A DNA stretch of 64,000 nt. Source: an uncultured bacterium. Its GTDB lineage: Bacteria > Krumholzibacteriota > Krumholzibacteriia > LZORAL124-64-63. The position numbers and the translations under genes are program-made. A model generated the notes under the pieces. It made no database searches and was not told the DNA's origin. It saw nothing but the letters and a program-made list of their open reading frames with translations. Location of the stretch: positions 94,987 through 158,986 of the forward strand of contig CAIOLW010000036.1 in NCBI GenBank assembly GCA_903859215.1, given 5' to 3'. Below are positions 11,625 through 30,800 of this stretch, in pieces (position 1 is the stretch's first letter; each line of letters starts with the position of its first letter).

Positions 11625-11698
11625 CCAACGCGCAGTGCGGCCGGGCGCCCTGGCGGGCGCCGCCGCCGCCGGGCCGGAACCCGGGAAAGGCCAACAGC

Positions 11699-12634
11699 AT
11701 GATGGAATTCTTCACGAAGACAAACTTCAAGTTCACCGGAGCAATGAAGTTCAACTTCACGCTATCGGGGATCGCCTTTGTCGCGAGCATTGTCCTGCTC
11801 ATCGCGCACGGCGGGCCGCGCTACAGCATCGACTTCACCGGCGGTTCCGTGCTGCAGGTGAAGTTTGCGCCGTCGCCGGGTATCAGCCAGGTGCGCGGCG
11901 TGCTCGAGAAGGGCGGCGAGGCGGGCGTCCAGGTGACGGAATTCGGCGCTTCCGACGAGTTCCTCGTCACCCTGCCGGCCAGGAAGGGCGCCGAGAGCAC
12001 CGACGCCACGCGCGTGGCGAAGGTGGCGCTGGATCAGTTGCACCAGGCCTTCCCGAACTCGCAGATCGATGTGCGGCGCACCGAGTCGGTGGGCCCCAAG
12101 GTCGGTGGCGAATTGCGTACCGCCGCCGTCAATTCGGTCATCGTCGGCGTGTTCCTGATCGCCGTCTATGTCTGGTTCCGGTTCGTCTTCCGGTACGGCA
12201 TCGCCGCCATCATCGCGCTGTTGCACGACGTGATGCTGACGCTGGGTATCTTCTCGCTGCTGAACCTCGAGGTCAGCCTGCAGATCGTTGCCGCGCTGTT
12301 GACCATCGTCGGTTACTCGATCAACGATACGATCGTGGTCTTCGACCGCATCCGCGAGAACATGGGGCTGCGCCGCAAGGAGAGCTACCGTGAGGTGATC
12401 AACCGGTCGATCAACGAGACGCTCAGCCGCACGATCCTGACCTCGCTGACCACCTTCACGGTGGCGGTGGTGCTGTGGGCCATGGGCGGTCCGGTGATCC
12501 GGGACTTTGCGTTTGCGATGAGCTTCGGCGTGTTCGTTGGTACGTACAGTTCGATCTTTATTGCCAGTCCGTTGTTGGTGTGGTGGTCGGACAAGCAGAT
12601 CAACGACAAGAAGCGCGCCTCCCCGGCGATGTAG
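11699..12634 (+). CDS. secF: Protein translocase subunit SecF
   Basis: YSIDFTGGSVLQVKF...VGYSINDTIVVFDRIREN... Confidence 0.95.
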   Translation: MMEFFTKTNFKFTGAMKFNFTLSGIAFVASIVLLIAHGGPRYSIDFTGGSVLQVKFAPSPGISQVRGVLEKGGEAGVQVTEFGASDEFLVTLPARKGAESTDATRVAKVALDQLHQAFPNSQIDVRRTESVGPKVGGELRTAAVNSVIVGVFLIAVYVWFRFVFRYGIAAIIALLHDVMLTLGIFSLLNLEVSLQIVAALLTIVGYSINDTIVVFDRIRENMGLRRKESYREVINRSINETLSRTILTSLTTFTVAVVLWAMGGPVIRDFAFAMSFGVFVGTYSSIFIASPLLVWWSDKQINDKKRASPAM

Positions 12635-12700: not shown

Positions 12701-13801
12701 TCACACGGCGAATTTCAGTTCATGCCGCCTCTGCAACGCCAGTACTCGGGTGTCGATTGTTTTCCTGTAGTATTCGCCCCATCGCTGCGGCAGGTCGATC
12801 CGGCTGACGAACAGGCGTCGGCTGAGCACCTCATCAACTTCCAGTCGGTGGTCCAGCATCCCTCGTTCCTGCGCCGGCGTGGGGCTCCACCGCACCTTTT
12901 CACGTCGTCCCTTCATGTAGTTGCGCCACACCAGGAACACCGCCAGCCGTTCCGCGCTTGCCTGCCGACGCTTCGACCAGGCGATCGTCTCCCGTTTGTG
13001 GTTCGCGCTGCTGTGTCGCAACAGGAGATCGGCGAGATTCACCGGGAACAACGGGTTCCGGCCATCACGGCGTTCCCGGCTCGACGTCACGATGTGCGTC
13101 ACCTGGCAGTCCAGTGTCGCGATCGCCCGGGGGTACGTCCGGTGGTCGTCGCTCAGCACGGTCAGGCGCGGTTGGCTCCCTGCCACGACCTGCAGCAGGT
13201 GGGTGACGTCCTTGAGCACCGCTTGGGGGTCCGGTCGCCCGTGCTGCGCTTCGAGGCGCTCCCGCTTGAGCTTCTGGGCGGGAGTCATGGAGCCGGAACG
13301 GCGAACTTCACTGTCGGTGAAATAGACGATGAAGTCGGACCCGGGTTCGATCGCCAAATGGTGGTGGAAGGGCCAGTACTGGGAGTGCTCGAAGGTGACG
13401 AAGCCGTCGATCGCCACGGTTGATACCGGAGGGGCTTTGCGCATCAGTTGAGTGTGCAACAGCAGGCAGTGGCGCCCAAGGCGTCCGAGCTGACGATCGA
13501 CGGTCGATGGCGCCACGCGCAGGTCGCGCGCAATCTGCCGGTTGGCCATTCCGCCGGTGGTCTTGGTCATCAGCAGGGGTAAGACGTCCGGCCGCTTCAG
13601 CCAATAGGTCGCGCTGAAGGTCTGGGAGCTGAAAGAGCGCCGGCAGTGCTTGCAGATCCACCTGGGGATACGGTGTGGGGCCAGGCGTCGCCCGTAGTAG
13701 CCAATGCGTTTGTAGCGGGAAACGGAATCGAACTGCTTGTGATACATGCAGTTCGGGTTGGGGCAGTGCGGCGGGATGTAGTGTGCGGTGTTGTTGTCCA
13801 T
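12701..13801 (-). CDS. Putative DDE-type transposase with N-terminal zinc-finger and HTH (IS1/IS1595-like layout)
   Basis: CPNPNC...WICKHCRRSFSSQTFSATYW, HTH NRQIARDLRVAPSTVDRQLGRLG, candidate acidic residues AIDGF / LSDDHRTY / SAERLAVFLVWRNYMK; bracketed by TIRs. Confidence 0.75.
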   Translation of the reverse strand: MDNNTAHYIPPHCPNPNCMYHKQFDSVSRYKRIGYYGRRLAPHRIPRWICKHCRRSFSSQTFSATYWLKRPDVLPLLMTKTTGGMANRQIARDLRVAPSTVDRQLGRLGRHCLLLHTQLMRKAPPVSTVAIDGFVTFEHSQYWPFHHHLAIEPGSDFIVYFTDSEVRRSGSMTPAQKLKRERLEAQHGRPDPQAVLKDVTHLLQVVAGSQPRLTVLSDDHRTYPRAIATLDCQVTHIVTSSRERRDGRNPLFPVNLADLLLRHSSANHKRETIAWSKRRQASAERLAVFLVWRNYMKGRREKVRWSPTPAQERGMLDHRLEVDEVLSRRLFVSRIDLPQRWGEYYRKTIDTRVLALQRRHELKFAV

Positions 13802-13855: not shown

Positions 13856-15016
13856 CTAGCGGATCATCGGGAAGGGCGATTCGCCCGTTGCCCCATGGCA
13901 ACTCAAACACGCCCTCCCCTCGTCATGCCCCTCATCATGGCACTTCTTGCACAACTGCCCCTGCCCGTTCCCCGGATAAGGGCTCGGCAACGGGTACGAC
14001 CCCGACGCCACGCCGTCATCCACCAGTCGCACCAGCCGGAAATCCCAGCGACCCGCCGCCGGCGCCGACGAGGCGTGCGCGCGGTGGCAGGTCAGGCACA
14101 TGATGCGGTCGGTCGCCACCGGCCCGTCCGTCCCGGTGGTGGATGTCGCCGGGCCCTCGAAGGGCACCTGGGGGATGTATGCGGTCGCCGTCATCCCGCC
14201 CCTGGGATTCGCGTCGCCTTCGTAGCGGTTGTACCGGTTGCGGACGTCGTCCTCGAGGTTGTCGTCGACCGGATGCCGGAAAGCCGAGCCGCTGCCCTCG
14301 CTGTGGTATTGCCCGTGGCAGTTCGCGCACCACAGGGACATGCCGGCGTGGTAGGCCGTGTGCCGGTTCGGCGATTCGCCGGCGCCGGGGTTCGTGATAT
14401 CGAGCCCCTCGGCGACGGGCGCCGGGTAGACGAAGACGGCCAGGCCGCCCTGAACCGGCCCCGGGCCGTGCAGCATGCGGTAGCCGCCGCCGCCGTGGGG
14501 GTCGTGGCAACTGGTGCAGCCGAGGCTGGCCGATGGGAAGGTCCCGCCGGGGGCGCGATCCCAGCGGGAGTCCGCGCCGGTGCCGCGATCCGGCGAGTTG
14601 ATGCAGTGGCCCGCGGCGTCGCCCGCGATGGCGCTGCCGGCGCCGTCGTTGAGGTTGTCCTCGAGCAGCCACGTGAAGTTTCCGGCCCCGTATTCGGTCG
14701 GGGGCGCCATCGGCGTCGCGCCGAAGACGCCGTTGCCGCGGCCGTGGCAGGTCAGGCAGAGGTCGGTGGACGATTCGGCGGCCAGCAGCGGGCGCGAGCC
14801 GTCGAGGGCGATCTGGCCGGTCGCGGCATCGTGCATCAGGTGGCAGATGGCGCAGGAACCGACGCTGCCGCCGTGCACGACGGCGGCGGCGGGTGCGGGC
14901 ATCGCCGCCAGCCCGAAGAACGCCGTACCCGCTGCGGCAAGCACGGCGCGAACCCGGGGGCCGCGGCGGAAGTGATGGGCCATGTGGGACAGTGACATCG
15001 GTTCGGCCGTCTCCAA
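13856..15016 (-). CDS. Secreted multiheme c-type cytochrome (7 CXXCH)
   Basis: CAICH, CLTCH, CTSCH, CANCH, CLTCH, CKKCH, CLSCH; signal-peptide-like N-terminus. Confidence 0.9.
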   Translation of the reverse strand: METAEPMSLSHMAHHFRRGPRVRAVLAAAGTAFFGLAAMPAPAAAVVHGGSVGSCAICHLMHDAATGQIALDGSRPLLAAESSTDLCLTCHGRGNGVFGATPMAPPTEYGAGNFTWLLEDNLNDGAGSAIAGDAAGHCINSPDRGTGADSRWDRAPGGTFPSASLGCTSCHDPHGGGGYRMLHGPGPVQGGLAVFVYPAPVAEGLDITNPGAGESPNRHTAYHAGMSLWCANCHGQYHSEGSGSAFRHPVDDNLEDDVRNRYNRYEGDANPRGGMTATAYIPQVPFEGPATSTTGTDGPVATDRIMCLTCHRAHASSAPAAGRWDFRLVRLVDDGVASGSYPLPSPYPGNGQGQLCKKCHDEGHDEGRACLSCHGATGESPFPMIR

Positions 15017-15077
15017 CCAGGGTGGGTGTTGCCCGTTGATTCTAACACGGAGATCGAGCCCCGGCTACTTTCCAAAA

Positions 15078-15118
15078 CGCCGATGGGCCCGGCGGGAATC
15101 TCCCGCCGGGCCCATCGG
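15078..15118 (-). terminator. Intrinsic terminator of the 15148-16239 cytochrome gene (minus strand)
   Basis: Perfect 18-bp stem CCGATGGGCCCGGCGGGA-ATC-TCCCGCCGGGCCCATCGG; minus-strand continuation CGTTTTGG. Confidence 0.7.
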
Positions 15119-15147
15119 TTCAGCCTTTGGTCAAGGCCCTACCTCGA

Positions 15148-16239
15148 CTACAGCTTGTCGAAGGCGTCCTTCGCATGGCACTTGTTGCACAGCGACTTCT
15201 GCTCAGCCACGAACGTGTAGCCGTAGTACTTCCGGTCCACGTCGGTCTGGATGAAGCCGGTGTCCGTCGCCAGCGGGTGCGACTCGGACATGATGCGGGC
15301 CGTCATGTCCCAGCGCGCGCTGTCCTGGAACGGCGAGGCATGGGCGCGGTGGCAGGTCAGGCACATGACTTCGTCGGTGCCCGTGGGGCCCTGCGTGTAG
15401 TTCGTCGAGTTGACGGTGGCCACGTCGACGGTGACGGCCTCGAAGGGCACCAGGCCCCAGTACGAGGTGGCAGCGTTGCCGCTGACCAGGTCGTCCGTGC
15501 TCACGTAGGCGTTGTAGGCGCCGGCGATCGACGAGCCCATCGCGCGGGTCGGGTGCACGAAGTTGGTCGTGTTGTCGTCATGGAAGTTGGCGTGGCAGTT
15601 CGCGCACCACTTGCTCATGCCGCTCTTGTACACGGTGTGGGCGACGTTGGACTCGATGCCCGTGCCCGACGTGGTCGTGCGGCTGTTGCCCTTGGCCAGG
15701 GGAGCCGGGTTGGCGAACGAGTAGCGGCCGCCGGCGTAGTAGGGGCCCATCTCGGTGCCGTACAGCAGGCGGAAGTTGTCGTTGCCGTGGGGGTCGTGGC
15801 AGCTGGTGCAGCCCATCTGGCCGCTGACGAACGTGCCGCCCGGCGCGCTGGCCAGCGTGGCGTCGGCAGCGAGGCCCTTGGTCGGCGCCACGATGTTGTG
15901 GCCGTGGCTGTCGCCCTTGCTCATGACCGTCGAGCCGCGGCTCACCCAGCTGAACGTGCGGCTGACCCAGTAGAAGTCGCCGCCGGCGCCGAAGCCGGTG
16001 CCGCTGGCAAACTGACCGTAGGCGGCGTGGCAGCGCAGGCAGGTGTCGCTGGCGGTGCCGGTGTTCAGCAGGAACTCGTTGCCACTGGGATGAGCGGCAT
16101 CCACGAGGGCGCCATTCTGGCTGTTGTGCATGGTGTGACAGCCGGCGCAGTAGGCAACGCCACCGTCATGGAATGCGAGCACCGAGCTGGCCGACAGGCC
16201 GAGCGCCAGCACCAGGGCGATCTTGATGAGAGTCTTCAC
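15148..16239 (-). CDS. Secreted multiheme c-type cytochrome (6 CXXCH)
   Basis: CAGCH, CLRCH, CTSCH, CANCH, CLTCH, CNKCH; MKTLIKIALVLALGLSASSVLA signal peptide. Confidence 0.9.
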   Translation of the reverse strand: MKTLIKIALVLALGLSASSVLAFHDGGVAYCAGCHTMHNSQNGALVDAAHPSGNEFLLNTGTASDTCLRCHAAYGQFASGTGFGAGGDFYWVSRTFSWVSRGSTVMSKGDSHGHNIVAPTKGLAADATLASAPGGTFVSGQMGCTSCHDPHGNDNFRLLYGTEMGPYYAGGRYSFANPAPLAKGNSRTTTSGTGIESNVAHTVYKSGMSKWCANCHANFHDDNTTNFVHPTRAMGSSIAGAYNAYVSTDDLVSGNAATSYWGLVPFEAVTVDVATVNSTNYTQGPTGTDEVMCLTCHRAHASPFQDSARWDMTARIMSESHPLATDTGFIQTDVDRKYYGYTFVAEQKSLCNKCHAKDAFDKL

Positions 16240-16352
16240 GAGTGAGCCTCCAAGTGCAAGTTTCGTTTGTCCCGCCGTTGGCGCGGAACGCTTCTGTGAA
16301 CGTCTACCTCGAACCGAGGACCGGCGCCGGACATTCGGCAGCGCCGACCTTT

Positions 16353-17321
16353 CTATTCAACTGCCCCGTCGGCCAGGACGCTGAATACCTGCACACGGCC
16401 TTTGAAACCCTGCGCCACGTAGAGGTGGCCGGTCCCATCCGCCGCCATCGACACCGGGTGATAGAAGGCGCCCGGGGCGTCCCCGATCGACCCGTATTCG
16501 TACTTGAACTCGTGTCCGGCATTGAAGGCCAGGATCTTGTGCCGCAACTGGTCCAGGACGAACAGGCCGCCGTCGGGCCCGGCAGCGGCCGCTACGGGGA
16601 AGAACATCCGGCCCGGCGACGAGCCGACCCGACCGAACGACTCCAGCTGCTTGCCTTCCGCACTCAGGACCAGCACCACGTGCAGGTTGCCGCCCGGCAC
16701 GCAGATCGTGCCATCGCCCAGTTCCGCGGGACGGCCGAGGTCCATTTCCAGCGACTTGTCGTCGGACTGCCCGTCGCCGATGGTCGCCGACCACAGGAGG
16801 GCGCCGGTGTTCGCATCGTGCTTGGCCAGGACGCCGCTGGTCGTGTCGAGCGTCAGGTAGTTCCCGTCGTGCATGACGACCAGGTGGCCCGGCTTCCAGC
16901 CGTTCGCCGGCGCTTCCGGCCGGTAGCCGTCGGGCTCGCCGTAGATGTCGAGCCGGGAGATCGTGCCGCGCTGGCCATCGACCAGCGTCGTCGCCACCAG
17001 CCGTCCTTCGTGGTCGACCGTGCCGTCATTCGGGCTCAGGAGGTTCGCGAAGCCGCCCGAGCGGAAAGTCTCGACGCCGGCGGCATTGAACACGTGCAGG
17101 GCGCTGTAGGCGGATTCGGTGACGCAGACTTCGCCGTGGTTCGCGTCACAGGAAACCGCCACCGGCCGCGCCTGGCCGTTGTGGTCCTGGGAGAGTTCCA
17201 GCGTGCGCTCGTACCGGATCGACATGGCACCCGCGACAGACGCGAACCCCGACAGCGCTGTTAGCGCGGCAACACCTGCAACGGTCATCTTCAGGTGGTG
17301 ATGGGGGCGATGGGGGTTCAC
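16353..17321 (-). CDS. NHL-repeat/6-bladed beta-propeller secreted protein
   Basis: Repeated blade-like segments (PVAVSCDANHGEVCVTE; PVSMAADGTGHLYVAQGFKGRVQVF); signal peptide. Confidence 0.75.
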   Translation of the reverse strand: MNPHRPHHHLKMTVAGVAALTALSGFASVAGAMSIRYERTLELSQDHNGQARPVAVSCDANHGEVCVTESAYSALHVFNAAGVETFRSGGFANLLSPNDGTVDHEGRLVATTLVDGQRGTISRLDIYGEPDGYRPEAPANGWKPGHLVVMHDGNYLTLDTTSGVLAKHDANTGALLWSATIGDGQSDDKSLEMDLGRPAELGDGTICVPGGNLHVVLVLSAEGKQLESFGRVGSSPGRMFFPVAAAAGPDGGLFVLDQLRHKILAFNAGHEFKYEYGSIGDAPGAFYHPVSMAADGTGHLYVAQGFKGRVQVFSVLADGAVE

Positions 17322-17359
17322 TCGTCACGCTCTTGTCATGGGTTGCCCGAAACTCCGCC

Positions 17360-17373
17360 GTGACCGTGGTCAC
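17360..17373. promoter_or_regulatory. CRP/FNR-like palindromic operator candidate
   Basis: GTGACCGTGGTCAC, i.e. GTGA-N6-TCAC, just downstream of the predicted -10. Confidence 0.35.
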
Positions 17374-17386
17374 TTGTCACGGATAT

Positions 17387-17414
17387 ATCATACCACACGG
17401 GCAGACGAAGTCAA
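17387..17414 (-). promoter_or_regulatory. Sigma70-like promoter for 17321-16353 and possibly downstream cytochrome genes
   Basis: Minus strand TTGACT - 16 nt - TATGAT in an AT-rich intergenic stretch. Confidence 0.6.
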
Positions 17415-17513
17415 CTGAAACGCCAAAAAATAAACGTGGTTTCGCGCATAGGACATGACATTCGTCCTCAAAATCTAACTTGCGGTATATCCTACAATTA
17501 GGTTGGTGGTTCG

Positions 17514-17552
17514 CCGAAAAAAGTGCGGCAGGCCGGTGACCCGACCTGCCGC
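17514..17552 (-). terminator. Intrinsic terminator of the giant cytochrome operon (minus strand)
   Basis: Minus strand GCGGCAGG...CCTGCCGC followed by ACTTTTTTCGG. Confidence 0.75.
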
Positions 17553-17612
17553 GCCGTCTTGCCGGACCCTGCGGCGGCGGTGTGGAACCCCGCCGCAGGG
17601 CTTGTTTCCAGG

Positions 17613-20600
17613 CTAGGAACCATCCCGCTTGGCGCGCAGCTTGTCGGTGTGGCAGCCGATGCAGAGCGCGCCTTCGGGGTTGTCCCGGAGGAACCGCACG
17701 AACGCGGTGCCGTGCGGCTCATGGCAGCTGACGCAGGTCATCTTGCCCCCGGTGCGCGGGTCCTTGAAGTTGTCGCCCATCGGGTGGTCGGTGTGGTCCC
17801 GGTAGGCATGGCAGTTCAGGCACACCTCCCGGATCTTCGTGCCGTCGGCCGCCTTTTCCGCCACCAGGTGCGGATTGTGGCAGACCGTGCATTCCTTGCC
17901 GTCAACCAGCGGGTGCTTGTGCGCCGCGGTCCGGTTCGTTTCCACCTTGGCCTGGTGGCACTTCCCGCAGACGGCCGACTGCTGCCGCGGCAACAGCGGC
18001 GCGTACGGTGCCGTGTGTGGTGAATGGCAGATGGTGCAGGCTTTCTCGCCCTTCAGCGGCGCATGCATCTCTCCGGTCTTGAGGTCCTCCTTCACGCCGT
18101 CGTGGCACCCGAAGCACAGCTCCGGCTGGCGCGCCTTCGTGGCGGTGGTGGTGCCGACATGGCACGCCGCGCAATTGCCCGCGGCGAACGGCTTGTGCAC
18201 GTTCTCATGCGGCAGGTTGGCCAGCTTGGACGCATGGGGCGTGTGGCAGCCGGCGCAATCTGCGGTCGCCACCGGGAAGCCCTTGTGCTTGGCAGCCAGG
18301 GACGCCGGTTCATGGCATTTCACGCACAGCACCTTCGTCTCGGCGATCAGGCTCATGGCCACGGGGCCCCCGTGCGGGCTGTGGCAGCGTGTGCAGGCGC
18401 CCGTCTTGAAAGGCGCATGCACAACCGGCAGCTTCTTCAGTTCGTCGATCTTCTGGTGGCAACTTGTGCAGAGCACGGCGGCCGGCTGCGTCAGCAGTTT
18501 CGGTTCGGACGAAGCGTGGGGGTTGTGGCACGCTTCACAACGACCCTCACGGAACGGGGTGTGCGCCAGCTCGGGCTTCGGCGCCAGCCCGGCCAGGTCG
18601 TGGCAGGCGGCGCAGGTGTCGGCCGTCCGCTTGCTGTTGAGCTGGTGATCGCCCCGGGCCACGTGCGGGTTGTGGCAGGCGGTGCATTCCCCTTCACCGA
18701 ACGGGGGATGCACGGTCTTGCCCTTGGCCGTCGCATCGGGCAGGCCGTCGTGGCACTGCGTGCACGTGGCGGTCTGGTTGACGATCGGCTGGGCGTCCAC
18801 ATGACACGTGGCACAGTCTCGGTCCGCGAAGGGCGGGTGCTCCTTGGCCACCAGCAGGCCCTTCACGGTCGAGTTGTGCGGCTCGTGGCAACCGAGGCAG
18901 TTCAGCCCGGCCGCCTCGCGCCCGAGGTGCTTGTCGGCGAAACCCTTGCTCTTCTCGTCGTGGCACTGGAAGCACAGCGCCGGGACCTTTGCCCGCAGGA
19001 AGGCGTGCCCCTGGCCACCGTGAGGCAGGTGGCAGGACAGGCATTCGCCCTGGCTCGGCGGGTGGATCGACACGGCGTTCTTGGGCGCGGCGATGGACTC
19101 GTGGCACAGGCCGCACAGCTTCGTGGCGTCCGTCGACAGCAGCGCCTTGCGGGGGGCGTTGTGTGGGTCGTGGCAGGCCGTGCAGTTGCCCTTGGCCACG
19201 GGTTCGTGGCCCTGCCAGTTGTCGCCGGTCGGCTGGCCGACATCGTGGCATCCGGCACAGGTGGCGGCCACGGGCTGCCGCAGCAGTGCGCGCTCCGCGC
19301 CGCCGTGCGGCAGGTGGCAGTCCACGCAGGCGCCGTCGGCCGCGGGCGGGTGCACCGTACCGCCGGCCGGCTGCTTGGAGAGATCACCGTGGCAGTCCGC
19401 GCACAAGGCGGCCGCGGGCTTCTTCAGAAGCGCCGGCTGGTCTGAAGTGTGCGGCAGGTGGCAGGCCAGGCACTCGCCCCGCGCGGCGATGTCGTGCGTG
19501 TGCGGTGCCGCGAGTTCCATCGCGACCTTCGTGTGGCAGCCCAGGCACAGGTTCCCGGGTCCCTTGACCAGGAGCTTCTGCTCCTCGGAACTGTGCGGGT
19601 CGTGGCACACCGTGCAGGCCTGCTTGGCGACGGGAGCATGCACCAGTCGGCCTTCCACGGGCGGCACCGGCACGATGTCGCCGTGGCAGCCCACGCACAG
19701 CTTGTTCGTCTCTTCCTTGAGCAGCTTCGGCCTCTCGCCGCCGTGGGGGGCGTGGCACGTGGTGCAGTTGCCCTCGGCGGCCGGCGCGTGCCGGTTCGTG
19801 TGGTCGAACGCGGTCTTGTCGTGGCACTCGAGGCACAGCTTGCGCTGGCCGGAAACCAGCATCCCGGGCCGTGCGCTCCCGTGCGCGGCATGGCACTTCG
19901 TGCACTCATGCTCGGCGGCAGGCGGATGGGCGACCTTGGTCGTGGTCGCCGGGTCGTCGTGGCACTGCACGCAGAGGTCGGCGAGCGGTACGGTGAGGGC
20001 GCCGGGCGCGGCTCCCGGTGTCGCGTCGTGGCACGAGGAGCATTCTCCGCCGGCCACGGGTGCGTGCAGCACCGCGTAGTCGAGGTGCTCGCCGTCGGAG
20101 CCGTGCGGGTCGTGGCAGGACACGCAGCCGGCGACGCCGCCCTTGTCGCCGTGCACCTTGGCGAGCTTCGCCTGGTCCTTGTGACAGGACAGGCACAGCT
20201 GGTCGCTCGGCTGCTTCAGCAGGCCGGCGTTGGCCGAAGCGTGGGGGTCATGGCACGCGATGCAGCCGCCCTGCGCCAGCGCCTTGTGCGGGTGCTTGCG
20301 GTTGAACGGGACGCGGTCGTGGCAGGCGAAGCAGCTCTCGTCGCCGGCCGCCTTCAGCAGGTTCGGCTGGCCCGTGCCGTGCGGGTTGTGGCAGCCCGTG
20401 CAGTCGCCCTGGCGCAGCGGGGCGTGCACGGGACCGCTCTTGAGGATCTCGCCGAATTCCTTGTGGCACTCCAGGCACAGTTCGCGCCCGGTGGCCTTGA
20501 GGACGAGCTTGCCGATGACGCCGTGCCGCCGGTGGCAACCCTCGCATTCGCGCGCGGCGAAGGGCGCGTGCGCATTGCGCGTGCTGACCTTCTTGATCGC

Positions 20601-20747
20601 TTCCTGGTGGCAGTCCGCGCAGGCCTTGCTCTTGAAGCCGCCGGCAGCTCGGGCCGGCCCGGCGTGGAACGCGACCGAGGCCACCAGCGCCAGCGCCAGT
20701 GCGGCCGCGCGAAGGCGGCGGGGGTGTACATCGATGCAGCGAATCAC
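17613..20747 (-). CDS. Giant multiheme cytochrome / doubled-CXXCH-motif protein (42 CXXCH)
   Basis: 42 CXXCH motifs counted by eye in 1044 aa, alternating C..CHxPHG and LC..CH units; N-terminal hydrophobic signal. Confidence 0.93.
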   Translation of the reverse strand: MIRCIDVHPRRLRAAALALALVASVAFHAGPARAAGGFKSKACADCHQEAIKKVSTRNAHAPFAARECEGCHRRHGVIGKLVLKATGRELCLECHKEFGEILKSGPVHAPLRQGDCTGCHNPHGTGQPNLLKAAGDESCFACHDRVPFNRKHPHKALAQGGCIACHDPHASANAGLLKQPSDQLCLSCHKDQAKLAKVHGDKGGVAGCVSCHDPHGSDGEHLDYAVLHAPVAGGECSSCHDATPGAAPGALTVPLADLCVQCHDDPATTTKVAHPPAAEHECTKCHAAHGSARPGMLVSGQRKLCLECHDKTAFDHTNRHAPAAEGNCTTCHAPHGGERPKLLKEETNKLCVGCHGDIVPVPPVEGRLVHAPVAKQACTVCHDPHSSEEQKLLVKGPGNLCLGCHTKVAMELAAPHTHDIAARGECLACHLPHTSDQPALLKKPAAALCADCHGDLSKQPAGGTVHPPAADGACVDCHLPHGGAERALLRQPVAATCAGCHDVGQPTGDNWQGHEPVAKGNCTACHDPHNAPRKALLSTDATKLCGLCHESIAAPKNAVSIHPPSQGECLSCHLPHGGQGHAFLRAKVPALCFQCHDEKSKGFADKHLGREAAGLNCLGCHEPHNSTVKGLLVAKEHPPFADRDCATCHVDAQPIVNQTATCTQCHDGLPDATAKGKTVHPPFGEGECTACHNPHVARGDHQLNSKRTADTCAACHDLAGLAPKPELAHTPFREGRCEACHNPHASSEPKLLTQPAAVLCTSCHQKIDELKKLPVVHAPFKTGACTRCHSPHGGPVAMSLIAETKVLCVKCHEPASLAAKHKGFPVATADCAGCHTPHASKLANLPHENVHKPFAAGNCAACHVGTTTATKARQPELCFGCHDGVKEDLKTGEMHAPLKGEKACTICHSPHTAPYAPLLPRQQSAVCGKCHQAKVETNRTAAHKHPLVDGKECTVCHNPHLVAEKAADGTKIREVCLNCHAYRDHTDHPMGDNFKDPRTGGKMTCVSCHEPHGTAFVRFLRDNPEGALCIGCHTDKLRAKRDGS

Positions 20748-20767
20748 GGTCGAGCCTCCTGCTTAAC

Positions 20768-22117
20768 TCAGTGGGCCGCGGGGGCGGCGGGCTGCGCGGT
20801 GGCCTTCTTGAATTCCTCGATCGCCTTCAGGACTTCCGCCTCGGCGCCGGGCAGCACGACAACGGGGGAAGCGGCCTTGAGCCGGGCCAGGATTTCGACG
20901 AGGTGGTCGCGCGTCGCGTCCCGTTTCATCATCGCCAGGACCTGGTCCCGGCACGACTCCAGCGGCTGGGGCTGCCCGCCCTCGAGGCCGCTGATCTGCG
21001 CCACGACCCAGCCGTCGGGGACCTCGTACGGTTCCGGCACCGCGTTCAGCTTGAGGTCGGCCGGTTTGAGGCCCATCTCCACGGGCTGCAGCCAGACATC
21101 GGGGAACGGGGGCGGGCCCTGGATGACGCGCTTGTCGTTCTCGGCCAGCCATTTGAGGGCCGTGCCCGACTCGAGCCGCGCGCGCAGGTCGCCCGCGATC
21201 TCCTTCGTCTTGACCTTGAGGCTGCCGACCTTCACGCGTGACGGCATCAGGAGATCGCCCGTGTGCCCCCGGTAGTAGTGCGAGACTTCGGCGTCGGCCG
21301 GCTTGAAGTCGAATTCCAACAGGACGCGCAGCGCCTCTTCCTGGATCGAACTGCGCTCCATGCGCTGGCGGAGAAGCACCATCCCGGGCTGGCGATCCAT
21401 CTTCTGCGCCCTCATCTGGGCGTTCGCCAGCACTTCCTCGACGTACGAGCGCAGGCACAGGTCGCGTTTTTCGGCGGCATCGGGCTTGCCGACCAGGCCG
21501 TGGTATTGCTGGAACCGGAGTTCACGCGAGAAATCGGCAACCGTCAGCTTGCGTCCGTTCACCAGGTTGGCGAGCACCTCAGTGCTTTCGCGCAGCCGCT
21601 TCTGCACGGCGGGGTCGGCCGACCCGTAGTCCAGCGACTTCAGCAACATGGAATCGACCGTGACGTTGAAGGTGCGGGCCAGCCCGGCGAGATAGCCCTT
21701 CACCGCGTCCCGACGCTTGTCGTGCACGGCGGGAGCATCCGCGGGGATCGACAGCGCGACCGAGTCGAGCAGCGCCTTCATGCATTCGTGGCGCACGGCC
21801 TCGTTGCCCTCGTTGCGGACGGCGAACTCCTGGTCCAGGCCCATGCGGTAGCCTTCCTGGATGATGAGTTCGTTCTGCGTCAGCCGCTCGAGGATCGCTT
21901 TCGGATCCGCGAATTTCGCGGCCACGTTGTCCGCGTTCCTGGCCTGCATGAGGCCCAGTTCGAGGTCCAGTTCGGCCGTCGTCACCGTGTCGGTCCCGAC
22001 GGTGGCGAGCGGCACGGGCCGCTGGTCGGCCGCGCGGGCCGCGGCTGCGCTCACGAGCGCGAACACGGCGATGAGCGCCAGGTTGGACCGCAACGGGCGA
22101 AGTGGGCGGGTGGTCAT
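20768..22117 (-). CDS. PpiC/SurA-like peptidyl-prolyl isomerase
   Basis: VATVGTDTVTTAELDLELG..., C-terminal VKTKEIAGDLRARLESGTALKWLAE...WVVAQISGLEGGQPQPLESCRDQVLAMM; signal peptide. Confidence 0.75.
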   Translation of the reverse strand: MTTRPLRPLRSNLALIAVFALVSAAAARAADQRPVPLATVGTDTVTTAELDLELGLMQARNADNVAAKFADPKAILERLTQNELIIQEGYRMGLDQEFAVRNEGNEAVRHECMKALLDSVALSIPADAPAVHDKRRDAVKGYLAGLARTFNVTVDSMLLKSLDYGSADPAVQKRLRESTEVLANLVNGRKLTVADFSRELRFQQYHGLVGKPDAAEKRDLCLRSYVEEVLANAQMRAQKMDRQPGMVLLRQRMERSSIQEEALRVLLEFDFKPADAEVSHYYRGHTGDLLMPSRVKVGSLKVKTKEIAGDLRARLESGTALKWLAENDKRVIQGPPPFPDVWLQPVEMGLKPADLKLNAVPEPYEVPDGWVVAQISGLEGGQPQPLESCRDQVLAMMKRDATRDHLVEILARLKAASPVVVLPGAEAEVLKAIEEFKKATAQPAAPAAH

Positions 22118-23166
22118 GAGGTAGGATCCTCCAGCAGGTGTTTGAAACGCGGCCACAGGTTCTCGGCGCCTTCGCGCATCTGGTCCAGTTCGGTCATCGG
22201 GTGGATGACGCCGAACCAGCCGGTCGGCGTTCCTCCCGGCATCATGATGCTCGACGCCGCCCGGATCCGGCCGGTGCGCAGGTCGAGCAGGCGCAGCGTG
22301 ATGGTCATGTCGGTCACCTGGCGGGGACCGGCAGCCGGGCCGTCGGCCAGGTAGTCGGGCGCGGCGTTGGCGTTGCCGTCGACCTGCCCGAAGGACACAA
22401 CCTCGGGCAATACGACCCACGTGATGCCGAAGCGTTCCGCCAGCTGGGCCCTGCCTTCCTTGTCCAGGCGCGCGGGGTCTCTTCCCGTGTCCAGGGCCGA
22501 GCCCGCCGCCAGCGCGGGGTCGATGACGGACCAGTTCGTATCGGCCACGGCCGCCGCCAGGAGGCAGGCGGTCGCCGTGCGCACGGCCTGCGCATCCAGC
22601 CCGATGCCCCGGCTGGACAGGATCAGGAGCGGCGCGCCGCCTCGATGGCCGGGCGCGTCGGGCGGCATGGCCCGCCGCAGGGCGTCGGCCAGCGACCGCT
22701 GCCAGGTGCCCTCCGAAACAGTCGCCGCGGCGATGCCGAGCGCCTCGACGCGTCCCTGGCCCGTGCCGATGGCCCGTACCGTCGCGGTGAGCGATCCGTT
22801 GTCCGCCAACACGGTCACCGCCAGCAGTGTTTCCGCTCCGAGCTCGCTGCGCAGGTCGGCCAGGAAGGCGGCAGGCAATGCGGCGCAGCTGCGCACGCGG
22901 TGGCGCCGCACCAGGTCCTCGGTCCCCGCGCGGTCGGCCGCCGGACGATGGGAAGCTCCCGTCAAGGCTGTCAGGATCTCGAGGGCTGCCTGGCGGATCA
23001 CGGCGGCATCAGGCGGCAGGCCGGGCATCGGCGCGCCTTCGAGGTTGAACACGATGGCGACGGACTCGGGTTCGTCGGCACGGGCCGCGCTGGGCACGGA
23101 CAGGAGCGCCGTCAGGAGCAACCCGGCAGCCAGGCCCAGGTGAGTTCCGTGCCTGAGGGTCTTCAT
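22114..23166 (-). CDS. Secreted protein of unknown function
   Basis: MKTLRHGTHLGLAAGLLLTALLSVPSAARA signal peptide; C-terminal RQVTDMTITLRLLDLRTGRIRAASS resembles CsgG/GNA1162-like strands. Confidence 0.6.
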   Translation of the reverse strand: MKTLRHGTHLGLAAGLLLTALLSVPSAARADEPESVAIVFNLEGAPMPGLPPDAAVIRQAALEILTALTGASHRPAADRAGTEDLVRRHRVRSCAALPAAFLADLRSELGAETLLAVTVLADNGSLTATVRAIGTGQGRVEALGIAAATVSEGTWQRSLADALRRAMPPDAPGHRGGAPLLILSSRGIGLDAQAVRTATACLLAAAVADTNWSVIDPALAAGSALDTGRDPARLDKEGRAQLAERFGITWVVLPEVVSFGQVDGNANAAPDYLADGPAAGPRQVTDMTITLRLLDLRTGRIRAASSIMMPGGTPTGWFGVIHPMTELDQMREGAENLWPRFKHLLEDPTS

Positions 23167-23747
23167 CAGAACAACGTCTCCAGCGCGGCGCGGACATTGG
23201 CGCGCGCCACGTCGTAGATGCCGGCCGTGCCGCCGCCGAAGAACTTCCGCAGGAGCGACGAGCCGTCGGTCCGGGTCTGCGACGACCAGATCGTGCCGCC
23301 GGTCTGCGTCTCGCACAGCTGGTAGACGCTGGTCACGACCTCGGACGGGTCATGGCTGGTGCGGTCCAGGCCGTATTCCTCGATGGTGCCGAAGAAGATG
23401 CCCTCGGCGCCGAGGCGCTTGCCGAGGTCCTTGATCTGCTCAGGGCTCAGGATGCGGTCGAGCGGGAGCTTCATTTCCGCCACGGCCGCTAGGGTCGCGC
23501 CGCGATCGATCACTTCGAGGTCCTTGTTGGCCAGCACTTCGGTCACGAAGATCGACTGCACGCGCTGTGCAGCGTAGACGTCCTGCGTGAGGTTGTAGAA
23601 CGGGTAGACGGCGACGCGCCGGATGAAGCTGAAGTCGACGTCCTCGCGCACGTACTGGCTGGCCCTGGGCGCACAGCCGATCGCGGCGAGGCATACGGCG
23701 AGCAACAGGATGGTCGTGCCTCTGACAAGGCGTCGCGTGCTCTTCAT
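23166..23747 (-). CDS. Putative lipoprotein, CsgG/GNA1162-like
   Basis: LLLAVCLAAIGC lipobox; VAVYPFYNLTQD..AAQRVQSIFVTEVLANKDLEVIDRG. Confidence 0.65.
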   Translation of the reverse strand: MKSTRRLVRGTTILLLAVCLAAIGCAPRASQYVREDVDFSFIRRVAVYPFYNLTQDVYAAQRVQSIFVTEVLANKDLEVIDRGATLAAVAEMKLPLDRILSPEQIKDLGKRLGAEGIFFGTIEEYGLDRTSHDPSEVVTSVYQLCETQTGGTIWSSQTRTDGSSLLRKFFGGGTAGIYDVARANVRAALETLF

Positions 23748-23804
23748 GGTTCGTTCTTTCCTCCCGTCAGCAGCCGTACCCGGGACAAAATTGGGATAAA
23801 GTGG

Positions 23805-26012
23805 TCAAAATGTCCAATAACCCCGCAACTGGAATCCGAACGGCCAGCTTTCGCGGCCGAGGAGGCGCTCGTAGCTCTTTTCGGCGCTTCCCGAGAGGGT
23901 CAGGCGGGGACGTGCCTGCCAGTCGACCCCGACGCTGCCGCCGCGGCGCAGGTCGTCGGCCCGCGAGTCCTGGTAGTCGTTCGCCGAGAAGGAGAGCAGC
24001 ACGCTGCCGCCCCGCAGGGGGATCCAGGACAGGGAATTGCGGTAGATCCAGTCTTCCCTCTCGCGCCGCTGGCCGACAGCCTGCCCGGACCACGACAGCA
24101 GGGGCGTGATCTCCCACGAGGCGTCGATCTCCGTCTCGGCGAACGAGGTGAACCCGGCGCCTGCTTCCTGGCCGACCCAGCGCGTGGTGCGCACGAAGTC
24201 CAGCCGCATGCTCGGTCGCGGGGAACTGCGGACCTCGGACGACACGACCCACGAATCGGAATTGCCGTCCAGGGCCGCACTGGTCCGCCAGCCGCGGGTC
24301 ACCTTCTGGTTGAACGTCAGCGCCGGCGCTGCGCGCCAGGTGCCGTCAGCCATGACCGATTCGGTCACCTGGCGGACGCTGTAGGTGTTGTCGTTGGTGC
24401 GCACCCAGGCCATGTGCGCGCCGAAGCGGTCGGTGTTCCGCCGCTGCAGCGAGACCTGGCGGGAGTTGGAGTCGGTCCTGAGCCTCTTCGGGCTGTGCTC
24501 GGCGCTCTCCTGGTACTGGCCGGTCAGGGACCAGCCCCCCAGCAGCCAGGAAGCGAGCACGCCGCCGTTCGTCCGCTCCTGGCGTCCATCGCCGGCGCGG
24601 TCGCGACGGTCGAGGGCGATGTCGCCGTGGACTCGCAGCCGGGACGAGAGCCTGACTTCGACGCCGCCCGTCGCGGTCGTCCGCTCCTGGCGCGAACGCA
24701 ACTCCGGCTGGGCTGTCGTCGCATTCTCCAGAATCTCGAACTCGGTGACGAAGAGGTCCCCGATCGTGGGGCCGATCTTCCGGTCCACAAGCTTGAGGCG
24801 CCGGTGCGTTGCGCCGCCGACGAAGGTGATTTCCCAGCCTTGCCGACCCGTCTCGGACTCCACGTAGCGGGCGCTCCAACTGCCGGCCGGGACCGGGGAG
24901 CCCCAGTCCCTGCCTTCTGCCTCGTCGCAGAAATACAGGTCCCACTGCAGCATTTCCGGCAGGAACGTGACCTTGCGGTCGACATACAGGAACGCGGACA
25001 CCATCGCGACCGGTTCCCCGAAGTCGAGGTAGATGTTGCGGAAGTCGCCGCCGTAGTCGCGACCGGGCGTCGCGTTGTCGCCGAGGTTGATCACCGTGGG
25101 CGTCGAGCGGTCGTTGTCGAAGAGCGCCGGCACGGGCTGAGGCTGGTTCTCCAGGGGGTCGAGGAAACCCGGCGTGTCGTCCAGCCAGAAGCCTCCGGCG
25201 AGCGGCGGCAGGTACTGCTGGCCCGCATCGGCGCTGAAAGTGTTGCGCTGGTTGAATCGACGGTGGTTGATCGACCAGGTCGCGTGGACTGCCTTGTCGC
25301 GAACGAGGTCCCGGTCACCACGAATCTGCAGTTGCTGCGTGTCGTAAACCGTTCGCTGCGAGAGCGTGATCGAATTCAGGTCGACGCGGGAATAGGTGAA
25401 CTCCACGTCTTCGTGGCGGGTCAGGTCCAGGCGCAGCCGGCCGGTGCCGTTGCGCTCGCGGTTCTCGCGATCCTCCGCGTTGCCGCGCCGCCAGCTCGAG
25501 TCGTCCTGATAGTTGGCATCGCCGGACAGGTGCCCGAAACGACCGCTGGTCCAGAGGCCGAATTCGAGGTTGTCGTCGCGCAGCGTCGGCAAACCGGTGT
25601 TGTCCTGGTCGACGCGATTGCCACGGGCGAACAGGCTGGCGCGCAACGGCGTGGACTGCCAGGACAACGTGGCCGACGGCGTCAGCGTGACGGTCGTGTT
25701 GTCGACGCTGGTGCCGGCGGCCGTGCCCTTCAGCAGTTCGCGGCGGGCCAGGTACTGCAGCCTGAAGGAAGCGTTGGGAGACAAGCGGATGGCCTGCTCG
25801 AGGCCGAAGATCTCCCATAGGTTGTCACTGCTGTAGGCCTGGTCGCCGGAACGCCCTTCCTGGTGAAGGGTGCGCACATCCACGCGGCCGTCCAGCGCCA
25901 CAGCCGGCGACCCCACGACGGTGACCAAGGCCAGGCCGACCAGCGCGGAACCGATCGCCAGCGAGGCGCGCCCGCGGCGACTGCGACGCGAATGTTCGTT
26001 CCGTGGCAGCAT
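23805..26012 (-). CDS. Putative outer-membrane beta-barrel, porin candidate of the cytochrome cluster
   Basis: Signal-like N-terminus (MLPRNEHSRRSRRGRASLAIGSALVGLALVTVV), many amphipathic aromatic strands, C-terminal GFQLRGYWTF. Confidence 0.7.
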   Translation of the reverse strand: MLPRNEHSRRSRRGRASLAIGSALVGLALVTVVGSPAVALDGRVDVRTLHQEGRSGDQAYSSDNLWEIFGLEQAIRLSPNASFRLQYLARRELLKGTAAGTSVDNTTVTLTPSATLSWQSTPLRASLFARGNRVDQDNTGLPTLRDDNLEFGLWTSGRFGHLSGDANYQDDSSWRRGNAEDRENRERNGTGRLRLDLTRHEDVEFTYSRVDLNSITLSQRTVYDTQQLQIRGDRDLVRDKAVHATWSINHRRFNQRNTFSADAGQQYLPPLAGGFWLDDTPGFLDPLENQPQPVPALFDNDRSTPTVINLGDNATPGRDYGGDFRNIYLDFGEPVAMVSAFLYVDRKVTFLPEMLQWDLYFCDEAEGRDWGSPVPAGSWSARYVESETGRQGWEITFVGGATHRRLKLVDRKIGPTIGDLFVTEFEILENATTAQPELRSRQERTTATGGVEVRLSSRLRVHGDIALDRRDRAGDGRQERTNGGVLASWLLGGWSLTGQYQESAEHSPKRLRTDSNSRQVSLQRRNTDRFGAHMAWVRTNDNTYSVRQVTESVMADGTWRAAPALTFNQKVTRGWRTSAALDGNSDSWVVSSEVRSSPRPSMRLDFVRTTRWVGQEAGAGFTSFAETEIDASWEITPLLSWSGQAVGQRREREDWIYRNSLSWIPLRGGSVLLSFSANDYQDSRADDLRRGGSVGVDWQARPRLTLSGSAEKSYERLLGRESWPFGFQLRGYWTF

Positions 26013-26217
26013 GGGTTGGACTGCAGCCTCGGCTGGGGATGCTTCGGCGACAGGCCTCGGCCGCGGGCGCTCCCGGGTGCCGGGGCGCGACGGCGCTTCT
26101 AAGTCCTTGTCAGCCGCAGGATTTCGACCGTTACGAGTTAAAAAAATAACAAATCGGACGAAAATAAGCAATCATGAACTTGAGGAATCGCGGCGGGTTA
26201 GGAAATGCCCGGATCGC

Positions 26218-27063
26218 CTAGGGGACATTCGCCATCACGGCCATGAGGCGCGTGTCGGCGGACTGGCCGGAGTTCCTCAACTGGTGGCAGCCGAGGCAAA
26301 GTTCGGGCTGCGACGGGAAGGCGACCAGGAGGTCGCGCTGACCGCCGGTCAGCGAGTGGCAGGTCTGGCATTCGACCTTGCCGTCGAACAGGCGCAGGCG
26401 CGGGTCGATGGGTGAACGCAGCCGGCGCTCGTCCCGGCCGGCGCCGGCGACGGCCATGACCCCGAGGGGATGCGTGGCGTGCTGGTCGAACGTCAGCGAC
26501 TGCCCGCCGGTCTCCGCCTGCCAGGTCGAGCCGCCGCCACTGCCGTGGCAGTTCAGGCAACCCTGGCTCGGCGACTGGCCGGCCAGCAGCGCGGCATCGC
26601 GATGGTACAGAGCGGCTGCGGCGCGGTGTGCGGTCGAGAGCTTGCCGAGATCGGCCCCGGGCTCGTGGCAGCCCGCGCAATGGGCGGGCACGCCTTCACC
26701 GAGGCCCTGGACCGACATCTTCAACTCGCCGAGCGATGTCTTGAGGCGACCCAGTTCGTGGAACGTATGGCAACCCGCGCAGTCGGCCGTGGGGTTGTCG
26801 TGGAAGCCGAGCTGGACCATGGCTGGCGAGTCCTTCGCCGCGAGGTCGCGGTGGCAGCTGCGGCAGGTCCGCGAGCGGGGGTCGGGGTCGTTCGGACCGG
26901 CAGCCGCCACGGCCCTCGCGGTGGCGCCCTGGTGGCACCGCGAGCACGCGATGCCTTCATGCGGGTCCGTACCCGACGCCGAAAGCCCGTTCGCAACCAG
27001 GGGGGTCGCGGACAGGATCAGTGCCGATACGACGGCGGGGAGCGTGCGCAAGGTGTCCTTCAT
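26218..27063 (-). CDS. Secreted multiheme c-type cytochrome (7 CXXCH)
   Basis: CSRCH, CRSCH, CAGCH, CAGCH, CLNCH, CQTCH, CLGCH; signal peptide MKDTLRTLPAVVSALILSATPLVANG. Confidence 0.9.
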   Translation of the reverse strand: MKDTLRTLPAVVSALILSATPLVANGLSASGTDPHEGIACSRCHQGATARAVAAAGPNDPDPRSRTCRSCHRDLAAKDSPAMVQLGFHDNPTADCAGCHTFHELGRLKTSLGELKMSVQGLGEGVPAHCAGCHEPGADLGKLSTAHRAAAALYHRDAALLAGQSPSQGCLNCHGSGGGSTWQAETGGQSLTFDQHATHPLGVMAVAGAGRDERRLRSPIDPRLRLFDGKVECQTCHSLTGGQRDLLVAFPSQPELCLGCHQLRNSGQSADTRLMAVMANVP

Positions 27064-27857: not shown

Positions 27858-30800
27858 ATGAGCTGGTCCCGGGCCCGCGCGACGGCCGTGGCTGGAATCG
27901 CCTGCGTGGCGGCCCAGGGCGTCGTCCTGACGCTGGCCAGCCGCAGCGCGGAAGCGGCGTCGCTTCCGTGGCGCGGCGTTTTCGCGTTGCTGGCGGTCGG
28001 GCCGTTGCTGACGGGCGTGCGTGCGGCGCGGCGGCCCGGACATCGGGCCTGGGGTCTGGCGACCGTCGTCCTGGCTGTCGGTCTGGCCGCGGGTGCGCTC
28101 TTCCTGCCGAAACCAGGTGCGCACCAGGCCCGGAACGCCGTCGCGCAGGCGCCGACCGAAGCGGTCGGAAAGATCGCCGCAGACCTCGAGCGCGATGTAG
28201 CCCGGCTCGCCGCCCTGGCTGCGCGGGAGGCTTCCGGCCTGACCGGGGCGGTGACCGGCGCCGGGGGCGAAGCCTTCCGCGCGCTCGCTCCGATCCCCGC
28301 GACGTGGGCGGCGGGCGACGCGGAACTGCGCCTGCCGGTCGCCGCCGCGCTCTGGCGCGACGGCCAACTCGCCGCCTGGACGGCCGGCGCCCTGCCCCTG
28401 TCGTCCCCGGCTGATGGGTCTGTCGCTGCGGTTTCGCGGCTCGAGCCGTACCGCGACGGCTGGGTGCTGCGTCGCCTGCAGCCGTGCCCGGGCGGAGCGT
28501 TGCTCGAACTGCAGTGGATGCTGCCGCGCGCGGACGACGTGCGCGGCGTGTACGGCCTGGAAGTCACTGTCGGCGAGGGGAGATCCGGCGCCGCGTTCCG
28601 CGACGTGGACCTCGACGGCAACACCACGCCGATGGTCGTGCGGGTGCGCGCAGCGGTCGGGGCTCCGGCGACGGCGGCAGCCTCCGCCGGCGCGCGCCTT
28701 TTGGCGCTGATGCTGGTGTCGTGGGCCGTGCTCCTGGTGGCGCAGGCGGCGCTGACCGGCCGGGGCCAGGTCGTGTTGGCAGCGGCGCTGCTTGCGCGCG
28801 CCTTCCTGGCCGCCGTCGATCTCCGCCAGTGGCTCGTGGCGTCATTTCCCGCGGTCGAGATGCCGACCCCTCCGGGTTCCTGGTCCAGCCTGATCGACCC
28901 GTCCTACTTCGCGACACCCGCGTTCGGCGGCTGGTTCGCGACCACCGCCGACGCGCTGCTGACGGCGATCCTGCTCGCGGTGGGTGTGCGCCATGTCCAC
29001 GCGCGGCTGGCGCGGCGGCTGGAGTCCGGCCCACGGCGTCTCGACAGACGCGGATCATGGTGGCTGGCCGCCGCCTTCGGCGTTGTTGCCGCCGTGTTGC
29101 TGCCGTCCCTGCGCGCGTTCGTGATCCTGCTGGCCGACAACGCTAACCCCCGCCTGATCGGTCCCGGCGTCTCCCTGTCGCTGCTCACGTTCTGGGGGCT
29201 GCACGTCGTCCTGCTGCTGCTGTCGGTCTCGGCGCTCGGTCTTCTCGGGCTCCTTGCGGTGGGTGCGCGCTCGACGGCCCGCGGCGCGACGCCGGCACGG
29301 GTCGGCGGCATCGCGGTGTTCGTGTTGGCTGTGGCCGGGGCGTGGCTGGCCCGCGCAGGAACGATGACCGGCGTGCTTGCCGGCGCGCTCGCTGCAGCGG
29401 TGTGGTGGTTCCAGGCCTGGGTGCGGGCGTCCGACGGACGCGGGGCGCGCTTGGCGTGGCCGGCGCTCGTGCTGGTGGCCGCCCTGTGGAACTACGCATC
29501 CTTGCACCACGTCCACGACGCGGCGGAAAGGGCGTGGCTCCAGCGTCGCGCCGGCGAGATCACGGATGACCAGTCGGGCTGGTCCCGCAGCCTCATCCAG
29601 ACCGTGCTCATGGAGATGCAGCAGGTGGACGATGTCGCCCCCGCCGAGACGGTGGATGAACCCTGGCGTGACGAGGCGGCCTGGCGCCTGTACCGGAGTT
29701 CGCTGCTCAATGGCCTGCACTTTGCGGGCCTCGTGGAGATCCTCGATCGCGAGGAGCGCAGCGAGAGCCTGTTCGCTGCGGGTTTCCTGCGCGATTTCCA
29801 CTACGAGACCATGTCACGCTCCGGCTGGGTGACATCCACCGGTGCGGCCGCGGGTCCCGGCGATGATATCGTGTTCCGGTCGGAACGGCGGCTCTACAGC
29901 GGCGGTCAGGAAGACATCCTGGTTGCCGAGGCCCCGCGGCGTTCGGGTCGCGGCTGGCTGCGCGTGGAGGCGCCGCTGCGGTCATGGCGAGTGTCGACGC
30001 TCACCGCGCCCCAGGACAACCCGGATGCCGCCGGCGGCGGCCGTTACCAGCCACGCCAGGAAGTGGATCGCCCGGTCCTTCTCCTGCTGGCCGATGACGG
30101 CGGGTGGCGGGGCTCGGGCGCCGAGGGATTCCCCGGCCCCGATGGCGACGAGCCCGTGGCGCAGTTGCGCGCGGGCCGGCGCGAGTGGGCCGTGATCCCG
30201 GTCGGCGGGCACGACTGGCTCTGCCGCTGGACGTTCGTGCCGGCGGCGGCGGCCCGCGCGCCGGGCGAGGGGTTCCTCATCGGCATCGAGCGGCCGACGT
30301 TCGGCGACACAATGCTCGACGCGTCGCGCATGATCCTCATCGACGTGCTCGTGTTCGTCATGCTCGGGGCGCTGGTCCGGTTCCGGCGGGTCGTCTCGCC
30401 GAGGGGCTGGCAGCCCGGCTTCCAGGAGAAGTTCCTGGCCGGGTACCTGCTGCTGGGGCTGGTCCTGCTGCTCATGGTCGGCCTTTCGGTCGACCGCGTC
30501 GGTTACGAACGGGTACGCGCCGAGGCGCGGCAGCAGGCGCGCGACGGACTGACGATGGCCCTCCAGCAACTGGGCGGCCTGCTGTCCGACCAGGCGCGCG
30601 AACTGGCCGACAGTGGCCGGTTGGACGATGCGTTGCGCGGGTCGGCTGCGGACGCGCCCGTCGATGCCGACCTGCGCCGCGCCGTGCTGTTCGCAGGCGA
30701 TGGCAGCGTGCTCTTCGACGGCTCGTCCATTCCCCTGGCGCCGGCGGAAGCCGCGGCGCTGCTCGAGGCGGCCCGTTCGTCGCCGGCGCTGCTCGTTCGC

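Follow-up and report, generated by a model that had tools for sequence, protein, structure and literature searches.

A cluster of nine genes on the minus strand (positions 13856 to 27063) of a 64,000-nucleotide stretch of DNA from an uncultured member of the Krumholzibacteriota (hereinafter the window) is best read as an osc-type locus that would mature, export and electrically feed a filament of OmcS-like cytochromes, a reading to which we assign a probability of roughly 0.7. The evidence consists of homology, gene order, co-occurrence across genomes, conservation of heme ligands and a gene fusion. New here are the fusion of OscI with OscJ, the absence of OscD, the seventh heme of one of the OmcS homologs and the conserved promoter that the propeller-OmcS pair has to itself. 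The sequence-only reading had found the gene content impossible to map to a named system; the genes in fact correspond to the osc/omcS (omcS-companion) nanowire locus, and its proposal of extracellular electron transfer is supported. A whole nanowire-assembly locus is thereby placed in the Krumholzibacteriota, from which homologs of the iron oxidase Cyc2 have been reported (PMC9769843). Our literature search found no paper joining Krumholzibacteri with OmcS.

The gene block and its counterparts in other phyla

All nine ORFs are intact and co-oriented across the span that the sequence-only reading gave them, and its motif counts are exact on recount, with 7 CXXCH in g1, 42 in g6, 6 in g8 and 7 in g9. 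No CXXCH occurs in random proteins modeled on the amino-acid content of its non-cytochrome genes. The overlaps of 1-4 nt that it described are those of g3/g4 (1 nt) and g4/g5 (4 nt), and the remaining spacings are 205, 57, 20, 291, 113 and 149 nt.

A scan of genome contigs for synteny recovered 78 loci, in which the usual order is an NHL propeller, one or two OmcS-like genes, a propeller lipoprotein of ~470 aa, a barrel of ~740 aa, a lipoprotein of ~200 aa, a second lipoprotein of ~375 aa, a PpiC foldase, a 26-heme and a 16-heme cytochrome and often another NHL propeller. This order is seen in Geobacterales, Nitrospirota, Acidobacteriota, Myxococcota, Zixibacteria and others, and the synteny search that the earlier reading had called for thus finds the barrel-cytochrome set conserved across the first four of these groups and beyond. 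Being kept across species, the cluster is not a chance arrangement. Within the host phylum, the OmcS-like proteins and the barrel family occur in the identical 25 of 80 genomes; the chance of identical sets is 3e-21 if the genomes are taken as independent and, since they are related, 7e-11 when computed by genus. One of the surveyed loci, L054, belongs to the same genus as the window genome (G000).

A Geobacter osc operon lying around GSU2505-GSU2493 and associated with OmcS nanowires is said to have been described by Shen et al. in 2025. One source (PMC13194489) reports the osc genes as required for folding and secretion of OmcS-type subunits in Geobacter, assigns OscH to folding, OscE, OscF and OscG to secretion and OscD to morphology, and treats oscI (GSU2495) and oscJ (GSU2494) as coding for periplasmic cytochromes; another (PMC12977616) links the GSU2500-2493 block with OmcS maturation and secretion in Geobacter. 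Our survey loci include those of Citrifermentans bremense as well as Geobacter sp. H2geo, two organisms that PMC12977616 names. The match to the G. sulfurreducens genes rests not on PCA sequences but on relatives in which the block is said to be shared, and the letters OscE to OscH were given to the window genes by gene order. The window shares with the Geobacter block the OmcS-like cytochromes, the NHL propeller, proteins of the OscE, OscF and OscG types, the PpiC foldase and the set of 26+16 hemes, and the internal order of these parts is unchanged. It differs in that OscI and OscJ, separate in Geobacter, are a single 42-heme protein, that OscD is absent, that the NHL-OmcS unit is found downstream of the other genes instead of upstream, and that it adds two 7-heme proteins (g1 and g9) and sits in the Krumholzibacteriota. 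As OscD is absent and OscI and OscJ are fused, we file the locus as an osc variant; its predicted membership is well supported by gene order, homology and co-occurrence.

The putative secretion genes can be matched individually to their counterparts through profile-profile comparison with hhalign. The OscE-type outer-membrane β-barrel g2 (23805..26012; 735 aa, its start refined to the ATG at 26012) matches the Geobacterales barrel at E 1.6e-24. The OscF-type lipoprotein g3 (23166..23747; 193 aa) has a lipobox and a GNA1162/LpoB/CsgG-core fold, with a GNA1162-like Pfam match (E 1.2e-4, below the Pfam cut-off) and a match to its Geobacterales homolog at E 1e-40. The OscG-type secreted protein g4 (22114..23166; 350 aa), in which no lipobox was found, is predicted to comprise tandem CsgG/PelC/LpoB-type folds: its AF2 model (pLDDT 85) retrieves GNA1162, LpoB, PelC and CsgG with Foldseek. 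Its match to the set of second lipoproteins from other osc loci has E 2e-11, and this intermediate set in turn matches the Geobacterales OscG position at E 1.8e-80. The CsgG/GNA1162-like lipoprotein recognized from the sequence, g3, is confirmed as such, and the same call extends to g4. The PpiC-like foldase is likewise borne out by a Rotamase_2 Pfam match (E 1.7e-7) in g5 (20768..22117; 449 aa), an OscH-type periplasmic protein that matches the PpiC of the Geobacterales osc block at E 1.8e-26. Cross-controls between different genes are flat except for g3 against g4, which have a fold in common. PelC and CsgG assemble into rings at secretion channels of the outer membrane. As in the PelBC/CsgG secretion collars, a protein with two CsgG/PelC/LpoB-type domains (g4) and a related lipoprotein (g3) stand beside a barrel, with the difference that the cargo there is Pel polysaccharide or curlin and the presumed cargo here is a cytochrome. 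The fold that g4 shares with these ring-forming proteins suggests a periplasmic collar beneath the barrel.

The OmcS homologs and their transcription

The six-heme protein g8 (15148..16239; 363 aa), the predicted filament subunit, matches OmcS (PDB 6ef8/6nef) along the entire mature protein (phmmer E 5.3e-55) with about 43% identity. Its paralog g9 (13856..14998; 380 aa, its start refined from the listed TTG at 15016 to the ATG at 14998) matches 6ef8 at E 5.3e-23 and carries a seventh, C-terminal heme, a 7-heme form found in the window genus. The six CXXCH motifs of OmcS align in the same order with those of g8 and g9 over the whole protein. The axial ligands of the OmcS hemes are 12 histidines, 11 from the own subunit and one from the neighboring subunit (PMC6584659). 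All 12 are present in both g8 and g9, namely the six CXXCH histidines and the six others, H2, H16, H110, H147, H257 and H335. Across the surveyed OmcS family (n=114-115), five of these non-CXXCH ligands are invariant and H16 occurs in 92%. H16 is the histidine that we take to cross the subunit interface, and its retention is as expected were the head-to-tail contact under selection. It thus counts against the alternative that the machinery exports soluble or surface-bound, non-polymerizing OmcS-like cytochromes, akin to the uncharacterized Geobacter OscC/GSU2501, for short-range electron exit, an alternative that we consider unlikely. This alternative draws on PMC12977616, according to which wire formation in Geobacter is known for some, not every, OmcS-like protein and some Geobacter genomes pair the block with GSU2501-type cytochromes alone; the extra C-terminal heme of g9 could also alter a polymer interface.

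For the preferred reading, we infer filament formation by g8 from its homology to OmcS and the conservation of the ligands. Compared with the OmcS filament structures, g8 is shorter (about 341 mature residues against 407). In the gene tree, g8 and g9 fall within a well-supported clade that unites Krumholzibacteriota with related phyla and is sister to the clade containing OmcS. The window genome has another OmcS-like gene (L053; G000:C352:7062-8141), which shares 59% identity with g8 and lies on a contig of 9 kb without other genes of the cluster. Its grouping with L058 and L059 in a supported clade indicates that several OmcS paralogs per genome are usual here.

The NHL propeller noted in the sequence-only reading, g7 (16353..17321; 322 aa), has an NHL Pfam match and groups in the propeller tree with those that precede OmcS-like genes, implying that it is the NHL-OmcS unit that has moved downstream here. 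Between g6 and this unit lies a terminator-like hairpin with a 12-bp stem and a T6 tail (17525..17552, minus strand), real as a pattern, where a terminator had been placed at 17514-17552. It is followed by a sigma-70-like promoter, TTGACT-16-TATGAT (17387..17414, minus strand), upstream of g7-g8. Shuffled sequence yields a mean of 0.8 such promoters, so that a single one is about what is expected; the real support is its conservation among species of the genus, as it is kept upstream of NHL-OmcS in three further species, making four with the window. With a hairpin ending g6 and a conserved promoter next to it, g7-g8 are probably transcribed apart from the machinery, and the gene for the predicted filament subunit would then be expressed separately from the assembly genes. 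The second proposed terminator, 3' of g8 at 15078-15118, holds as a very strong hairpin (15080..15118, minus strand; 18-bp stem, -43.6 kcal/mol over 44 nt) and is less certain as a terminator: only four T follow, which accounts for its being missing from the consensus terminator scan.

The 42-heme fusion and the missing OscD

In the 42-heme cytochrome g6 (17613..20747), the 26-heme OscI (hemes 1-26) and the 16-heme OscJ (hemes 27-42) are fused in collinear order. Relatives outside the clade of the window have two genes instead, one with 26 hemes and after it one with 16. In 13 of 13 such split loci, the 26 hemes align one-to-one with hemes 1-26 of g6. In 11 of them the 16-heme protein likewise lines up with hemes 27-42, and in the remaining two it falls in another repeat register. 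At the junction, g6 has neither a stop codon nor the signal peptide that the separate 16-heme protein carries, and the short motif preceding the first heme of the OscJ part is retained (PIVNQTATCTQCH in g6 and AAVDQPKVCLECH in a split relative). An assembly or frameshift artifact was rejected, as a single ORF with 41-42 hemes is found in nine more related genomes, and in the gene tree the fused form makes up one clade of 10 rows with 100/100 support. A single origin for all 42-heme forms was also rejected, since the fused gene of L052 (G054:C657) falls among split genes; hence, the fusion probably happened twice, L052 being the second instance. That the fusion joins exactly 26 and 16 hemes suggests that OscI and OscJ act side by side, probably forming a single electron path.

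The second difference from the Geobacter block concerns OscD. No OscD propeller lipoprotein occurs between an OmcS-like gene and the barrel or elsewhere in the cluster, and a profile of the OscD position finds in the window genome a sole match to a generic propeller (E 3e-4). The same profile has strong matches in 9 of the 25 OmcS-bearing genomes of the phylum and in 0 genomes of the main fused clade. The L052 genome, with the second 42-heme gene, retains an OscD homolog.

An additional component is g1 (26218..27063; 281 aa), a secreted 7-heme cytochrome with class III/c7 and paired-CXXCH Pfam matches. Its homologs adjoin the cluster in L034, L035, L041, L042, L044, L046, L049, L051 and L052, making it a conserved neighbor within the phylum, on either strand; no counterpart was found in the Geobacterales osc loci.

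We tentatively raise the possibility, itself rather doubtful, that this is a pared-down nanowire system, in which a continuous 42-heme wire feeds an OmcS-like filament assembled without the OscD morphology factor. If so, the filaments may bundle or take their shape from g7, g9 or g1. With OscD naturally lost, assembly and morphology would be uncoupled; this loss and the OscI/OscJ fusion both allow the building and charging of cytochrome nanowires to be tested directly.

The barrel and a proposed path of assembly

By analogy with Geobacter and from the folds of the proteins, the locus could work as follows. The filament subunit g8, probably along with g9, would be expressed from its own strong promoter, enter the periplasm via its signal peptide and be loaded with heme. 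The PpiC foldase g5 would hold g8 in an export- or polymerization-competent state, and g8 would cross the outer membrane through the wide barrel g2, at which g3 and g4 would form a periplasmic collar like those of PelC and CsgG. Outside the cell, subunits would join head to tail, one histidine of each ligating a heme of the next, and g6, whose OscI and OscJ parts are given as periplasmic in Geobacter, would deliver electrons to the filament base. Against this reading stand the modest identity of g8 to OmcS (~43%), the missing OscD and the fact that, among the matches listed, the barrel has its best TM-score with MtrB.

This last point concerns the conduit of the MtrCAB or OmbB-OmaB-OmcB type that the sequence-only reading had suggested. 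The AF2 model of g2 (pLDDT 85) has about 26 long strands and one inserted domain, at about residues 265-430, of the F5/8 type C (jelly-roll) kind; in family members the insert matches F5/8 type C and CBM32, and OMP_b-brl matches are also seen. MtrB has 26 strands. Of the solved structures among the matches listed, MtrB (6r2q_B) has the highest TM-score (0.41/0.45), and the overall shape of g2 is MtrB-like; the superposition is poor, with an rmsd of 13.7 over 860 columns. MtrCAB, PioAB and OmbB-OmaB-OmcB likewise set a large outer-membrane barrel beside multiheme cytochromes, but theirs is an MtrA/MtrC pair, whereas the window has a foldase, CsgG-fold proteins and OmcS-like subunits. The HMM search for MtrB/PioB that had been called for gave no Pfam family match for g2 and none to MtrB_PioB (PF11854) in the window genome, and an MtrB_PioB conduit was rejected on these grounds. 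The resemblance to MtrB is the one point that speaks for such a conduit. The constant companions of the barrel are OmcS-like cytochromes, the foldase and CsgG-fold proteins, and the latter two fit secretion. The porin-cytochrome reading is weak: that g2 forms a sheath around g1 or around a portion of g6, in the way MtrB surrounds MtrA, with the OmcS-like proteins as outer-surface reductases, is highly improbable despite the conservation of g1 in the phylum, as g1 lacks a detected counterpart in Geobacterales osc loci.

Adjoining g9 is a 366-aa transposase-like ORF (12701-13801, minus strand) with zinc-finger-like CPNP/CKHC motifs and no Pfam match at 1e-4. Nearby on the plus strand are the overlapping ORFs of secD and secF (10020-12634) and a gene for a DUF362 protein with 4Fe-4S ferredoxin motifs (8694-9794). 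On the opposite side, the cluster adjoins a gene for a 1557-aa membrane histidine kinase with HAMP, HisKA and HATPase domains (27858-32531, plus strand), a candidate regulator.
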